From a virus: a stretch of 26,029 bases of DNA. The notes below the pieces were generated by a model. That model did not search any database and was not told the DNA's origin. It saw only the letters and a program-made list of their open reading frames with translations. The DNA lies in IMG/VR virus record IMGVR_UViG_3300025097_000047, positions 1-26,029 of that record, one strand, 5' to 3'. A program made the position numbers and the translations under genes. Within the stretch, counting starts at the first letter, position 1; the number at the start of each line of letters is the position of its first letter. Below, in pieces: positions 3,803 to 16,358 of this stretch.

Positions 3803-4516
3803 ATGAAAACACCAACAGAGAAAATTACAGAGGAAATGGGTACTGATATTACATTGGTTACTGAAGGAGTAAGGGAATTACATATAGTCAGCCAAGAGTC
3901 CTTTGATATTACAACTGAGTTTATGGTCAGGCTCGCAAGCAGACTTAAACAGGTCAAAGAGCATTTTAAGCCGATGAAAGAGGCTGCACAAAAGGCTCAT
4001 AAGGTAATTGTTCAGCAAGAGAAGGATATGCTCAATGGTCTTACTCAGGCTGATATATATTTAAGGGGCATCAGGGCTACTTATGTTGAAGAAATGGAGA
4101 AAAAGCAACGTAAGGAACAGGATAGGTTGGACAAACTGGCATATAAGAAAGCTCAAAAGGAAAAGGAAAAACTGCAAAAGAAGATCGATAATGCAGAGAC
4201 TCAGGCTGAGGTAAATGAATTACAGGATAAGATGGACAATGTATATGCAGATCCTAATATAGCATCAGGCGGCATTGAGAAGTCAACTAAGGTTGAAGGT
4301 GGTGGCAGTACAAGCTGGATAAAGGATATTGAGGTCGTGGTTGAGCATCCTTTGGAGTTATTAGAAGAGATTGTATCCGGCAGAATACCCTTGAATGTGG
4401 TTGAAATTAAAACTGCAAAGCTGAAGGCATGGGTTAAGGCTAATGGCATTACTAATAAACAAGTTCCTGGCATCAGAGTAAAAGAGACAAGGCGTGAATC
4501 TGTGAGGAGTGGTTAA
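3803..4516 (+). CDS. Coiled-coil protein of the recombination module
   Basis: The middle of this 237-aa protein (about residues 50-150) is a long, very charged coiled coil (KKQRKEQDRLDKLAYKKAQK). After it comes a compact domain with a Gly/Ser linker and a C-terminus reading VPGIRVKETRRESVRSG. Similar coiled-coil proteins with this kind of tail often accompany phage exonuclease/annealing genes, but their function is not established to my knowledge. It begins one base after the exonuclease stop (TGA-t-ATG) and uses the GGGGG string in that gene's end as SD, so the two are probably coupled. A helper or scaffold for recombination is inference. Confidence 0.65.
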   Translation: MKTPTEKITEEMGTDITLVTEGVRELHIVSQESFDITTEFMVRLASRLKQVKEHFKPMKEAAQKAHKVIVQQEKDMLNGLTQADIYLRGIRATYVEEMEKKQRKEQDRLDKLAYKKAQKEKEKLQKKIDNAETQAEVNELQDKMDNVYADPNIASGGIEKSTKVEGGGSTSWIKDIEVVVEHPLELLEEIVSGRIPLNVVEIKTAKLKAWVKANGITNKQVPGIRVKETRRESVRSG

Positions 4517-4519
4517 TTA

Positions 4520-4535
4520 AATGCGTTTACGCATT
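4520..4535 (+). repeat. 6-bp hairpin between operon genes
   Basis: AATGCG-ttta-CGCATT is a perfect inverted repeat directly after the coiled-coil gene. No T-run follows, so it looks more like an mRNA-processing or stabilising hairpin, or an operator, than a terminator. Confidence 0.35.
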
Positions 4536-4569
4536 ATAATTAAGAATTTCTAATTGTCAAGGAGATAAC

Positions 4570-4770
4570 ATGAATTTATATAAAATACAGGATTCAGATA
4601 GGGATATGTGGGTAGTTGCTAAGAGCATGGGACACGCAGTTGAAAGTTGGAGAGAGGTTATATTTAAAGAAAATCCAGACGAATATAAAGGTGTCGAAGA
4701 CGTTGAGGAACCAAGTGGAGTTGTCTCTGTTTGTACGGAACGTGAATTGTTCGTGAATACAAGACCATGA
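4570..4770 (+). CDS. 66-aa hypothetical phage protein
   Basis: A clear SD (AAGGAGA) stands seven bases before the ATG. The protein is small and acidic, opening MNLYKIQDSDRDMWVVAKSM with a helix and beta pattern (WREVIFKENPDEY) and a late Cys. It is likely a compact alpha/beta protein of the kind that modulates host factors, but I recognise no family. Its TGA overlaps the ATG of the resolvase gene (ATGA), so the two are translated together. Confidence 0.6.
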   Translation: MNLYKIQDSDRDMWVVAKSMGHAVESWREVIFKENPDEYKGVEDVEEPSGVVSVCTERELFVNTRP

Positions 4771-5153
4771 TAGTATCGATGCCTCTGTATATAGACTTGG
4801 AGCGTAAGACAATGCCGGCAAAGAGGTATTATATCAACCTTAATAATTACCGGAACTGGCAGTATCATGTCAGTAATAAGCTCAAGATTAAATATAAAGA
4901 CATTGTAAGACCGGCTCTTTATGGGATCACCTTTAAGCATATTACTCTTGACTTTCTCCTTCACAGAGGCGATAAGAGGCGTGTTGACAGGTCTAATATC
5001 CTTTCCATACATGAGAAGTTTTTATGTGATGCCATTGTAGAATGTGGGTGTATCAAAGATGATAACGATAATTTTCTACATTCCACACACTACTATACCG
5101 GTAATATTGACAAAAAAAATCCGAGGGTTGACATTCAAATAAAGGAAATATAA
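4767..5153 (+). CDS. rusA: RusA-like Holliday-junction resolvase
   Basis: The C-terminal half carries the RusA signature: Asp74-x-x-Asn77, then Lys84 and Asp88 on a helix, and the acidic pair Asp98-Asp99 after ECGCIK, with a final beta strand (PRVDIQI). RusA enzymes are small dimeric nucleases that cut four-way junctions and branched DNA; in phages they resolve recombination and packaging intermediates. The gene starts within the previous stop (ATGA); a second possible start is the ATG at 4812 (MPAKRYY), which would remove a weak N-terminal extension. Length (128 or 113 aa) fits the family. It sits with exonuclease and annealing-type genes, as expected. Confidence 0.75.
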   Translation: MIVSMPLYIDLERKTMPAKRYYINLNNYRNWQYHVSNKLKIKYKDIVRPALYGITFKHITLDFLLHRGDKRRVDRSNILSIHEKFLCDAIVECGCIKDDNDNFLHSTHYYTGNIDKKNPRVDIQIKEI

Positions 5154-5275
5154 TGACAACCTTCCAGATAGTATTATTAATATCGCTTATTAATGTAAAC
5201 TTTCTAATATGGTCTGGTGTATTATTCTGGTGTGCTATTCAGGAGAGAAGGGAAGAAAACTTAAATGAAGATTAA
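5153..5275 (+). CDS. 40-aa single-span membrane protein
   Basis: The ATG overlaps the resolvase TAA (TAATG), and AAAGGAA lies upstream as SD. Residues 4-29 form a continuous hydrophobic stretch (FQIVLLISLINVNFLIWSGV) long enough to cross a membrane once, followed by a charged tail with ERREE. No Cys-box lipoprotein signal is present. Such micro-proteins in phages may affect the host membrane or act in lysis timing; no function can be assigned here. Confidence 0.55.
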   Translation: MTTFQIVLLISLINVNFLIWSGVLFWCAIQERREENLNED

Positions 5276-7012: not shown

Positions 7013-7363
7013 TTACAAGGGCTTACAGAGCCTTACAGGACGCTTGGCTTCACAATCCTTTCCTTTCCTTCGCAGTATCATGTCAGCTACCTGTAAACAT
7101 TCTTCCGGAGATAGCTGCTGAGATCCACACTTAGTTAAAATATATAACTGATGTAATAAATCCTTCCTTTGCATTAAGGCAATCTTCTCCTCTGAAGGTT
7201 TTGGTATTAACTCCTGTTCAATCCAATGTAAAGCCGACATAACCTCGTCATGTTGTGCCATTACTGCCTGGTCTGATGTGTACCTTGCCTTGTAAGAGAA
7301 GTCGTACAGACCTTCCCTTACTGCAAAAATCCACGATTCCTTCTTGTCCTTGTCAAGTTCCAT
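7013..7363 (-). CDS. 116-aa hypothetical protein in methyltransferase operon
   Basis: The last gene of the minus-strand operon overlaps the end of the second methyltransferase by 11 bases, so it is probably coupled to it. The protein is mixed alpha-helical and charged (MELDKDKKESWIFAVREGLY at the start), has a few Cys residues and a basic C-terminus (RRKGKDCEAKRPVRL). No motif is recognised. Its position suggests an accessory role to DNA modification, but this is only context. Confidence 0.6.
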   Translation of the reverse strand: MELDKDKKESWIFAVREGLYDFSYKARYTSDQAVMAQHDEVMSALHWIEQELIPKPSEEKIALMQRKDLLHQLYILTKCGSQQLSPEECLQVADMILRRKGKDCEAKRPVRLCKPL

Positions 7364-7976
7364 TGTTCACTTCCTTCCTTAATATTAGGTTTAAAATTTC
7401 CTCGCACAGCTTCTCTGGAATTACCCCTCTTTGCTCAGTTGACTTCTCGCCTTGTGTTCCGGTCCTTGAGCCTCTCGGTGCTGATTCATGGCAACTGTCA
7501 CCATTGTTACAGCATTTACCATTAAAGCCAAAGTTGTTCCATATATCAGTAGGTTTCATACGCTTATCTCCGTATTGACAATAAGATACTGTAGTTCTTG
7601 GTAATGGCTTCATAAACCATGCCGACCTGAGACCTGCCCTTGGATTCTCAATAACCCAAAACTTGGGCGTTAACCATTGGATTACCTCAACACATTTATA
7701 TGCAAGGGCTAAACCGATATATGCTTTCGGTGTTGTTGGAAAACCCATAAACATACTATTTCCAGACAGAGAAAATGTCTCGCATGGTGGAGAAAACCAA
7801 ATCATATCAGGGTTTCGCCATAATACCGGAAGAAGTTTCTTGTTAAAATAAAGCATATCACAACATAAATCAGGCTTGAATTTTGGGTTGAAGTCCACAG
7901 TAAATACTTTATGTCCTTCCTTTTCTGCGACTTTACTGAACGACCTGGTACCACAATAAAACTCTAAAATTTTCAA
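7353..7976 (-). CDS. Phage cytosine-C5 DNA methyltransferase, short type
   Basis: This 207-aa enzyme has the AdoMet motif I variant LEFYCGTRSFSKVA (residues 4-17), the catalytic SPPC loop with Cys65 in IWFSPPCETFS, and the motif VI variant VIENP (108-112). The C-terminus contains ESAPRGSRTGTQG and IPEKLCEEIL, a pattern I associate with a phage-borne C5-methyltransferase family distinct from Dcm. It would transfer a methyl group to cytosine in phage DNA; the recognition sequence cannot be read off. Its ATG overlaps the stop of the larger methyltransferase (4 bases), so the two are translated together. It lacks a long target-recognition domain, so it may have low specificity or need a partner. 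Confidence 0.8.
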   Translation of the reverse strand: MKILEFYCGTRSFSKVAEKEGHKVFTVDFNPKFKPDLCCDMLYFNKKLLPVLWRNPDMIWFSPPCETFSLSGNSMFMGFPTTPKAYIGLALAYKCVEVIQWLTPKFWVIENPRAGLRSAWFMKPLPRTTVSYCQYGDKRMKPTDIWNNFGFNGKCCNNGDSCHESAPRGSRTGTQGEKSTEQRGVIPEKLCEEILNLILRKEVNNGT

Positions 7977-9313
7977 GGTATCACTCCTTTTAAAAGGTGT
8001 GCTATCACATCTACTGTGAAGCCATTTCCCAACATTTTATAGCGCTGAGTGTTCGACACATAGTTGGTGTAGTTGTCTGGAACGGTCTGAAGGCGTTCAC
8101 ACTCAACAGGTGTCAGCTTTCTGATATATCCCTCAATCAATACTCCTTTCCCTTCCTTCTCGGTTAAAGTATAAAACTTCTTGCCACTTATCAAGACCTT
8201 ACATTTGCTCTGTCCACTCGTAGACGGCAGAGTTCCATGCTTACCATCCAAGTAATAGGCTCTTTGGTCTTGAGAGCCGTGACCTTTACCTTTAACATCA
8301 TATTGGAAATAGTTCTTCTTTATTTCACCGAAGATGTATTGTCCCATCTTTGCCGCTCCACCACCTGCGTCACCAAGTAAGGTCACAGCCTTGTTATTAA
8401 GATAATACACTCGGTTGGCGTGAGAATCCTTGCGAAAATAACCGAGCTTCCCTTCCTCAACGTCTTTGTCGAGTATTTTAAGCGTGTCATCGAAGGGTAC
8501 AATATACTCTTCTAAGGCTTGGAAGAAACAATTATAAGGGACTCCTTTATGTACGTTTGCAGTCACAGAGAATGACTTTCTATCTTCATACTGCGTGTAC
8601 CGGCAGAGCCTACAGTCCCCTGCCTGTTGCCATTTCTCGTTACCTCTCAACATATATCCAACCTCTTTATCTGAAAGCACAGTTCTCTTCATAATTTCAC
8701 ACACCATCTGACCTTGATTCTTCTTAAAGTATTCTCTCTTGGTTGTTCTTCCAATGCTTGCGATTACAGCATGAGCCTTCTCCCTGTCCACCAAGCAGTT
8801 CTCATGCACAATGTCCCTGAGTAAAATACCCTTGTCTTCAGGATCGAATAAATATGGTATGTTAGTCCAATATAATCTCTTCCTATTCTGTGCCGACACT
8901 AAAGCCGAGTCAATGAATATGGGTTGGACACCGAGATACTTTGAGATAATATCTTGAAACTCCTGTTTCATCCTGACATTCTCCAGAATGAAATACTTTG
9001 GTTTCAATTCTTTCAGTAGCCTCATATATTCAAAGAACAACTTACTCCGAGAATCTTCAAAGTTCAACTGCTTACCTGCAAAAGAAAACCCCTGGCATGG
9101 TGAGCCGCCAATTAATAAACCAATCTCCGGTAGATTATCTGCGTTGATTTTAGCGACATCACCAAGTTGAATAGTATCCTTAAAATTCGCCTGTGTTACA
9201 TCTATCGCATATTTGTCAACCTCTGATGCAAAATATTTGTTCACCTTAATACCGGACCTGGCGAGTGCAATCTGACCTCCACTCATTCCGTCAAATAAAC
9301 TCAAGATGTTCAT
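7973..9313 (-). CDS. dcm: DNA cytosine-C5 methyltransferase (Dcm family)
   Basis: The 446-aa protein has the full C5 motif order: FDGMSGG (I, residues 7-13), GGSPCQGFS (IV, catalytic Cys73), ENVRM (VI, 111-115), QNRKRLYW (VIII, 142-149), LTPVECERLQ (IX) and MLGNGFTVDVI (X). Between VIII and IX lies an unusually long region of about 240 residues holding the target-recognition domain, with several Gly-rich strands (LLGDAGGGAAKMGQY). It methylates a specific cytosine in duplex DNA; in phages this usually protects against host restriction. On the minus strand the SD is AGGAGGGAG, just before ATG. First gene of a three-gene operon opposite to its neighbours, probably acquired as a block. Confidence 0.93.
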   Translation of the reverse strand: MNILSLFDGMSGGQIALARSGIKVNKYFASEVDKYAIDVTQANFKDTIQLGDVAKINADNLPEIGLLIGGSPCQGFSFAGKQLNFEDSRSKLFFEYMRLLKELKPKYFILENVRMKQEFQDIISKYLGVQPIFIDSALVSAQNRKRLYWTNIPYLFDPEDKGILLRDIVHENCLVDREKAHAVIASIGRTTKREYFKKNQGQMVCEIMKRTVLSDKEVGYMLRGNEKWQQAGDCRLCRYTQYEDRKSFSVTANVHKGVPYNCFFQALEEYIVPFDDTLKILDKDVEEGKLGYFRKDSHANRVYYLNNKAVTLLGDAGGGAAKMGQYIFGEIKKNYFQYDVKGKGHGSQDQRAYYLDGKHGTLPSTSGQSKCKVLISGKKFYTLTEKEGKGVLIEGYIRKLTPVECERLQTVPDNYTNYVSNTQRYKMLGNGFTVDVIAHLLKGVIP

Positions 9314-14397: not shown

Positions 14398-14844
14398 ATG
14401 AAAAAAATAAAATACACAGACGCTATAGCACAAAAAATCTTGAATCTCTTATCATCCGGAAAGACTTTAGTTGATATTCAATCCAAAGGTCTGCCGTCAA
14501 GGTGGACTATTTATCAATGGTTTGTAGACAATCCAGAGTTTGAGAAAAGGTTTAGACTTGCTCAGTCTTGCAGTACGGACATAAGGATTGAGGATGTATT
14601 AAAGAGGATAGAAACCTGCACAGACACCAAGCAAGCCAAATTGCTTGACGTTTTATTTAAGTCTACCTCATGGTATGTTAGTAAGATTAATAGGGCAGTA
14701 TATGGGGATAAGATAGACGTAAGCCACACTCACACACTAGACGTATCCAAGCCGATACAACTTGCATTACAGAGGCTCTCAGCACTCAGGCTAGAGCCAC
14801 CACAAGAGCGTGTTATCGAGGTAAATCATACTACTATAACATAA
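14398..14844 (+). CDS. terS: Terminase small subunit
   Basis: The 148-aa protein follows the TerS plan: an N-terminal helix-turn-helix (YTDAIAQKILNLLSSGKTLV, then GLPSRWTIYQWFVDNPEF) for binding the packaging site, then helices for oligomer formation, and a flexible C-terminus. TerS rings recognise phage DNA and regulate the large terminase. The start has no good SD; the ATG ends the A-rich leader. The large subunit lies about 4.8 kb downstream, an unusual separation filled by small accessory genes. A strong promoter precedes it. Confidence 0.75.
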   Translation: MKKIKYTDAIAQKILNLLSSGKTLVDIQSKGLPSRWTIYQWFVDNPEFEKRFRLAQSCSTDIRIEDVLKRIETCTDTKQAKLLDVLFKSTSWYVSKINRAVYGDKIDVSHTHTLDVSKPIQLALQRLSALRLEPPQERVIEVNHTTIT

Positions 14845-14973: not shown

Positions 14974-15048
14974 GGGGGGGGTGGGGGAGAACTTTGGGAC
15001 TCCTCTCCCCCCCCACGTCCTCACTCCAACCAACTTTTTATTTTTTTT
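14974..15048 (+). terminator. G-run/C-run hairpin, probable terminator after terS
   Basis: Eight G, a T and five G (14974-14987) face eight C and AC (15007-15016), giving a stem of at least seven GC pairs plus AGA/TCT with a bulge. T-runs follow at 15035-15048, somewhat far from the stem. The G side, with a nearby GGG, could also form a G-quadruplex. Confidence 0.5.
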
Positions 15049-15058
15049 ATATATATTT

Positions 15059-15110
15059 ATGTTCGCTTTTTTACTTGCAATATATAATATTTTATGTTAC
15101 GGTGCGAATT
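15059..15110 (+). repeat. dpdA leader, repeat copy A (likely promoter)
   Basis: ATGTTCG, a T-run, then TATATAATATTTTATG and TTACGGTGCGAA lead straight into the dpdA-like ATG. The 20 bases at 15085-15104 recur exactly at 15937-15956. TATAAT at 15083-15088 could be a -10 box. No classic SD is present other than GGTG. Confidence 0.65.
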
Positions 15111-15794
15111 ATGCAGATATATACAGGTACAGCGTTTGGTAAGAAGTTTGAAAAGGTGAAGGAATATGAATTAGGTATAATGATAAGTACGTTTGATTTA
15201 AAGTCATTTCCTCCTGAGAAGTATTTTGGTAAGGTCCCCTGTGCATTGGATAATGGAGTATTTAATTGTTATAGGAAGGGTTATCCATTTCAGGCAGATT
15301 TATTTTTGAAGAATATTGCACATTGTTACAGGATGGGGATTAAATTAGATTTCATAGTATGTCCGGATATTATGTGTGGAGGCATGAAGTCGCTTGAGTA
15401 TTCTCTTATGTGGGCGAGGGGAGAGCTTATAACGGCACCTAATTTAGCTTTAGTTGTCCAAGACGGCATGAGGGTAAGGGATATAGAGAGGGATCTTGAG
15501 GATAATTTCACACATATATTTGTCGGTGGTTCGGTTGAATGGAAGTGGAAGATGGTTGAGGAGTGGGTAGAATTTGCGAGAGCCGAGGGTTTAAAGTCAC
15601 ATATAGGTCAATGTGGGAAGAAGGAATATTTGGAGAGGGCGTTTGAGTTGGGTGTTGATTCCGTTGATTCATCGAGTATAGTCCGTAATGGAACATGGGA
15701 GATTATAGAGCAATATCAGAGGTCTAAGAAGGGAGTGCAGAAAGATTTGTTTAAAGAAGGCGAAAAAGAAGATATATTGTCCTTTGTGCAGTAA
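15111..15794 (+). CDS. DpdA/TGT-like DNA-guanine transglycosylase
   Basis: The 227-aa protein has the motif order of the DpdA branch of the tRNA-guanine transglycosylase superfamily: ALDNGVF (Asp47), FIVCPDIM (Asp86), LVVQDGM (114-120), FVGGSVEWKW (137-146), SHIGQ (163-167) and GVDSVDSSS (181-189). DpdA enzymes swap guanine in DNA for a 7-deazaguanine, which shields phage DNA from restriction. No preQ0-synthesis genes are seen in this window, so the base would come from the host or from genes elsewhere. The frame is open further upstream, but that part reads through the G/C hairpin, and ATG 15111 follows the repeated leader, so I start there. Substrate and DNA versus RNA target are inferred. 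Confidence 0.72.
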   Translation: MQIYTGTAFGKKFEKVKEYELGIMISTFDLKSFPPEKYFGKVPCALDNGVFNCYRKGYPFQADLFLKNIAHCYRMGIKLDFIVCPDIMCGGMKSLEYSLMWARGELITAPNLALVVQDGMRVRDIERDLEDNFTHIFVGGSVEWKWKMVEEWVEFARAEGLKSHIGQCGKKEYLERAFELGVDSVDSSSIVRNGTWEIIEQYQRSKKGVQKDLFKEGEKEDILSFVQ

Positions 15795-15909
15795 GGAGAT
15801 TGGCAAGTGTGGTCATAATCGTTATGATATGATGATTGCAGTCCTTGATGCTTGGGATAAGGTTAAAAGCAATAAAGAGGAATATATTAAATTTAGACAG
15901 ATAAAATGA
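15745..15909 (+). CDS. 54-aa zinc-ribbon protein with non-standard start
   Basis: In the frame one base ahead of dpdA a clear small domain appears: IYCPLCSKEIGKCGHNRYDMM, then a helix (IAVLDAWDKVKSNKEEYI). The Cys/His layout CPLC...CGH is zinc-binding. No ATG, GTG or TTG precedes it after the last stop; the best candidate is ATT at 15745, nine bases after a GGGAG SD. It overlaps the last 50 bases of dpdA, so it might instead be made as a frameshifted extension. The coding look is convincing; the start is not. Confidence 0.45.
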   Translation: MCLKKAKKKIYCPLCSKEIGKCGHNRYDMMIAVLDAWDKVKSNKEEYIKFRQIK

Positions 15910-15918
15910 AATTAGGTC

Positions 15919-16015
15919 CATGTTCGTTTTTCCTTGTAATATTTTATGTTACGGTGTGAAAATATTTGGTAAGAATTTTAAAAAAGGTGAAGGGTTATGG
16001 GTTGGGTATAATAGT
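15919..16015 (+). repeat. Decayed duplication of the dpdA leader and 5' coding end
   Basis: ATGTTCG, a T-run and an exact 20-base match (15937-15956) to the dpdA leader are followed by TTTGGTAAGAATTTTAAAA and GGTGAAGGGTTATGGGTTGG, which align with dpdA codons 9-22 after small indels. The dpdA-like frame is broken after about 18 codons. Confidence 0.7.
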
Positions 16016-16358
16016 TAAACCTAAAAACTGTGTAATATGCGGAAGGATAGTGCCGCTTATTAACGGTAGCTTGAGAACGCAGCCGGCAAGGATATGTAGG
16101 GGTAAGGTAACCAAGAGTGGAAGACATATTGCCTCGGACTGCCAGAAGAAATACAGGAATGAATGGCATAAAAATAAGTATATTTGTGCTGAGTTTAGGG
16201 CAACGAGGAAGATTGATGAAAGCGCTGAATTTATTAATAAGTGTTTAAAGTGTGATAATAGGTTTGAGGCTGAATCAAAATTTAATCGAGTTTGTCCGGA
16301 GTGTACTATTGGCAACCGAAGTTGTGGGGGCAGGGAAGTGCATATATCAGCAACATAG
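15966..16358 (+). CDS. Zinc-finger protein fused to a dpdA 5' remnant
   Basis: Residues 7-17 (KVKGYGLGIIV) correspond to dpdA KVKEYELGIMI, so the start of this gene derives from the duplicated dpdA end. From residue 20 it is a different protein: CVICG, ICRGK and ASDCQKKYRNEW give one Cys cluster, and KCLKC...VCPEC a second ribbon near the C-terminus. TTG 15966 or GTG 15987 could be the start; SD support is poor, with GGTG upstream. Zinc fingers of this kind often bind DNA or act as adaptors. How it is translated, and whether it works with DpdA, is open. Confidence 0.5.
   Translation: MVRILKKVKGYGLGIIVKPKNCVICGRIVPLINGSLRTQPARICRGKVTKSGRHIASDCQKKYRNEWHKNKYICAEFRATRKIDESAEFINKCLKCDNRFEAESKFNRVCPECTIGNRSCGGREVHISAT

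Follow-up and report, generated by a model that had tools for sequence, protein, structure and literature searches.

The leader and first codons of a dpdA-like phage gene occur twice in the DNA analysed here (positions 1 to 26,029 of IMG/VR virus record IMGVR_UViG_3300025097_000047, the whole stretch of 26,029 nucleotides being called the window), and the second copy heads a Cys-rich open reading frame. The duplication itself is a real observation, which we could confirm. Judged from the sequence, it probably marks a mosaic gene border, at which the segment of leader and dpdA would have been duplicated or recombined and the body of the second dpdA lost in favor of the Cys-rich gene. The features that bear on this reading are the following.

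15055..15066, + strand: 12-mer ATTTATGTTCGC, left edge of the dpdA leader, placed by blastn junctions and sequence
15059..15110, + strand: copy 1 of the duplicated leader, with the exact 20-mer at 15085-15104 and, 6 nt ahead of the dpdA ATG, a Shine-Dalgarno-like element (GGTG)
15111..15794, + strand: dpdA-like gene, 227 aa, phrog_15826, predicted TGT-like fold; the duplicated tract takes in codons 1 to about 25
15920..16018, + strand: copy 2, a shortened leader plus dpdA codons from about 9 to 25; one extra base breaks the original dpdA frame
15966..16358, + strand: Cys-rich (zinc-finger-like) ORF, 130 aa from TTG15966, the N-terminal 17 residues encoded by the dpdA-derived tract

The duplicated tract and its donor gene

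Direct sequence search confirmed that the 20-mer TAATATTTTATGTTACGGTG is repeated without mismatch at 15937-15956, as the original prediction had reported. The alignable tract is longer than this match: it pairs 15059-15186 with 15920-16018 (with ends at 15181 and 16012 as the shorter alternative) and covers the dpdA leader and about 25 codons. Local alignment gave 83 identities in 92 ungapped columns, the 20-mer included, with several indels, and the two largest of these make copy 2 shorter, by 7 bp within its leader and by about 20 bp around the dpdA start codon. The order of dpdA is preserved in copy 2 from the leader through about codon 25; similarity then breaks off abruptly at about 16018, and none of the remaining 200 dpdA codons was found there. 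When both regions were aligned, the tract pair scored 57. Dinucleotide shuffles (n = 1,000) gave a mean of 20.3 (sd 2.7, maximum 34), and no other 300-bp stretch of the window scored above 35. This result contradicts a chance match and bears out the claim that leader and 5' codons of dpdA were duplicated. A self-BLASTN of the whole window recovered both halves of the tract, with E values of 2e-6 and 3e-4, and only repeats in the first ORF scored higher. The latter, at 364-599 and 1102-1285, represent a domain repeated inside that ORF and are the strongest self-similarity of the window.

The name dpdA for the gene at 15111-15794 seems reasonable, because its product matches phrog_15826 (3e-23), its main motifs (ALDNG, QDGM, GG...WK, H.G) are common to phage proteins, two of which (L021 and L022) adjoin queD-like genes, the former also a folE-like gene, and tRNA-guanine transglycosylase (TGT) is its top fold match. 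The Foldseek search behind this match (probability 1.00, TM about 0.55) used an AlphaFold2 model built from four sequences (pLDDT 71), and other TIM-barrel enzymes scored nearly equally. QueD and QueC families were not found in the window or in the L006 contig, both of which are possibly incomplete. The gene that donated the tract resembles the DpdA/TGT phage family, and differs from it in being a singleton, with neither QueD nor QueC in the contigs examined; DpdA proteins encoded as singletons in phages are already known (PMC6884629).

Direction of copying and the Cys-rich reading frame

DpdA relatives from other phages, at 52% identity or below, have an N-terminal pattern of approximately M-x-I-Y-x-x-N and then, at about residue 20, a G-I/V-L/M strand. 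An N-terminal HMM was built from seven such relatives, with the window left out. It gave copy 1 a score of 38 bits; for copy 2, read in the Cys-rich frame, the score was 10.4 bits, with an E value of 3.4e-5 when taken as a single test. In a search of the whole window, copy 2 came no higher than third among 721 frames (E 0.26), and the protein signal of copy 2 taken alone is therefore weak. Since this independent profile scores copy 2, we conclude on profile evidence that the shared stretch of codons belongs originally to dpdA, from which the Cys-rich gene received its copy, and not the other way round.

The second copy has lost its frame, as predicted: its TTTTAAAAAA run is longer by one base, and the dpdA frame that opens in this copy closes at 16018. 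Downstream of the extra base, the Cys-rich frame regains the dpdA register (KKVKGYGLGIIV versus EKVKEYELGIMI), and the predicted joining of the copy to a Cys-rich protein with dpdA-like N-terminal residues holds for residues 5-17. The canonical starts that preserve the first CxxC (the CVIC knuckle) are TTG15966, GTG15987 and TTG16002, all of them inside the copied tract. GTG15956, in the original dpdA frame, was rejected as the main start, with its frame closing at 16018 and no Shine-Dalgarno visible upstream. Copy 2 may therefore be used as the leader and start of the Cys-rich gene, as we infer from these starts.

Identification of the Cys-rich protein gave faint signals. Its zinc-ribbon matches are weak (Zn_ribbon_8, E 0.035, below the cut-off of that family; phrog_23051, E 0.005, a family with no known function), no relatives were found in phage records, in the bacterial genome collection or at other dpdA loci, and the predicted structure, with a pLDDT of 38, is too low for use. 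Given the weak zinc-ribbon similarity to phage proteins, the body of this gene was probably imported or is older, rather than having arisen de novo. Of the two histories first envisaged, the birth of a new gene and the replacement of a second dpdA, this favors a second dpdA replaced or joined, and is a leaning rather than a decision.

Gene gain or loss at the leader edge

Four further IMG/VR contigs are 99.8-100% identical over this region. All four carry both tracts at the same 852-bp spacing, so the arrangement is not an error of a single assembly, and within the tracts a single substituted base, in the L005 version of copy 1, is the only difference. Two of these contigs (L001 and L003) contain, just upstream of dpdA, a block of 913 bp that carries a radical-SAM gene (phrog_9298, 2.7e-88) and is absent from the window; in L001 this gene occupies 4385-5263 on the - strand. 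The block is flanked by two copies of ATTTATGTTCGC, forming a 12-bp direct repeat, and the radical-SAM stop codon immediately precedes the repeat. The repeat starts within 4 nt of the duplicated tract's left edge, and ATGTTCG begins copy 2. We estimate that such a coincidence of edges would arise by chance in about 5% of cases if breakpoints were uniform over the intergenic region of about 265 nt. The left edge of the tract also bounds a gene that sister phages carry and the window lacks, an arrangement pointing to recombination where genes meet.

The small terminase gene just upstream is also a different one in L001 (window 14398-14844; L001 5541-5999, - strand). As the radical-SAM block is present or absent and the small terminase gene is swapped among sisters, contig comparison indicates that the leader border is a place of gene gain or loss. 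The leader of the radical-SAM gene was considered as a third, diverged copy and rejected: beyond the 12-mer its similarity was not significant, 343 of 5,000 shuffles being as good. Neither a hybrid lacking dpdA, with the leader joined directly to the Cys-rich gene, nor a full second dpdA was found in any contig. In the intergenic region after its small terminase gene, L001 has a tandemly repeated sequence of about 34 bp.

In the mosaic-border reading, which we hold to be the probable one, a segment consisting of the short leader (starting at ATGTTCG) and the dpdA 5' end would have been doubled by recombination. Homologous or short-repeat recombination is the mechanism that we infer. The dpdA body behind the second copy would then have gone missing, with the Cys-rich gene joined in its place, and this gene would thereby start inside dpdA-derived sequence. 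The leader edge would persist as a site of gain and loss, as the radical-SAM block of the sister phages suggests. A more far-reaching version, which we regard as unlikely, makes the leader edge a preferred recombination border where whole genes are added or removed singly, each bringing a copy of leader and start, and where the dpdA 5' fragment would serve as the N-terminus of a hybrid zinc-finger protein.

Three other explanations have to be considered. The duplicated leader might have been selected for expression, the capture of a promoter and start having given the Cys-rich gene a working leader and thus a new gene architecture. This would agree with the leader core being the best-preserved part of the tract (23/24 positions, versus 40/47 in the coding part) and with the retention in copy 2 of the GGTG ribosome-binding-like element. 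However, the difference in conservation is small, and the strongest predicted Shine-Dalgarno of the Cys-rich gene, before TTG16002 (-8.5 kcal/mol), derives from the dpdA coding sequence and not from the leader. The idea of a duplicated promoter also fared badly, as no sigma-70 site was found on the + strand of either leader and the whole region is no richer in such sites than shuffles. Selected capture is thus unlikely.

It is also very unlikely that a complete second dpdA decayed in place, leaving the Cys-rich ORF as its remodelled remainder. The order of dpdA kept to about codon 25 and the indels, which are typical of decay, would fit; in contrast, the abrupt end of similarity with nothing left of the 200 downstream codons, and a Cys-rich body with weak zinc-ribbon relatives of its own, argue against it. 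Chance similarity between leaders could be suspected from their AT-rich composition and from a single occurrence of the 20-mer in an unrelated viral contig (L002), but the shuffle test, the collinear coding similarity and the independent DpdA profile make this explanation hardly credible. Among viral contigs, the 20-mer was found in five only, four of them from the phage group of the window; the fifth, with one copy, is L002, where it lies at a gene junction of an unrelated phage. We took this hit as chance and rejected the 20-mer as a widespread motif. Searched as a structured pattern in viral contigs, the leader was found only in the same four contigs of the group.

Known parallels and neighboring features

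In the Island3 and Brujita mycobacteriophages, neighboring genes have a common end of about 60 bp, at which one gene was gained or lost (PMC3029335). The gene 67/68 pair of these phages is the closest parallel to our case, adjacent genes sharing an end of about 50-100 bp that reaches into the coding region. The dpdA and Cys-rich genes are likewise adjacent and share a short homologous end. Island3 and Brujita, as near-identical phages, differ by one whole gene at such a site, and this may have its counterpart here in the radical-SAM block, present or absent at the left edge. In contrast to Island3/Brujita, the shared end here is the 5' end with its leader, gain or loss of the radical-SAM gene uses the 12-bp edge repeat, and the single hybrid version was not seen. 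A border repeat with genes changing on one side also recalls the short conserved boundary sequences at phage module borders (PMC3029335); the present case differs in comprising three borders in one small phage group, with the third leader reliably sharing only the 12-mer.

In Cluster K mycobacteriophages, the SAS is a short motif that occurs in many copies ahead of unrelated genes (PMC3203893). SAS/ESAS elements resemble our leaders as repeated sequences at gene starts, and differ in that only two copies are present here, with homology extending into codons. A search for a many-copy motif of this kind found TTTATGTTAYGGTG exactly only twice, with 10 loose matches versus 5.5 expected. Our observations are a clear but fairly ordinary trace of phage gene swapping at shared gene borders. 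They offer a readable example of border reuse, in which the leader and first codons of one gene can become the start of its neighbor, and a concrete instance for a long-standing question, namely if phage mosaicism proceeds via short shared sequences or random joins. The case comprises five nearly identical contigs of uncultured phages and leaves the general view unchanged.

Two further features lie close to the tracts.

14974..15016, + strand: long G-tract/C-tract hairpin by folding, GGGGGGGGTGGGGGAG...CTCCTCTCCCCCCCC, with T-rich sequence after it
15721..15909, + strand: Cys-rich frame (CPLC...CGH), YCPLCSKEIGKCGH..., running across the 3' end of dpdA in a different frame and ending 10 nt before copy 2

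The hairpin follows the small terminase gene, ahead of the dpdA leader, and is kept in L001; no RNA family or tRNA was found in the window. In the frame at 15721-15909, no ATG, GTG or TTG start preserves CPLC. This frame either has a non-standard start, or is a +1 frameshift product of dpdA, or belongs to a gene truncated at the arrival of dpdA.

QxxLF-like peptides (QKDLF, QHPLF, QSMLF, QLDLF and QEVLF) occur toward the C-terminus of dpdA, at about 15738-15752, and in relatives (L033, L036, L040, L109). Peptides of this kind are present in 12 of 62 distinct dpdA tails, compared with 4.7 expected by shuffling. They resemble the bacterial sliding-clamp-binding motif, and a tail of this type may tether the dpdA enzyme to replication. 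Elsewhere in the window, on the strand opposite to dpdA, two adjoining C5-cytosine DNA methylase genes occupy 7353-9313 (-); given these genes, two different types of DNA modification may be encoded by the phage.
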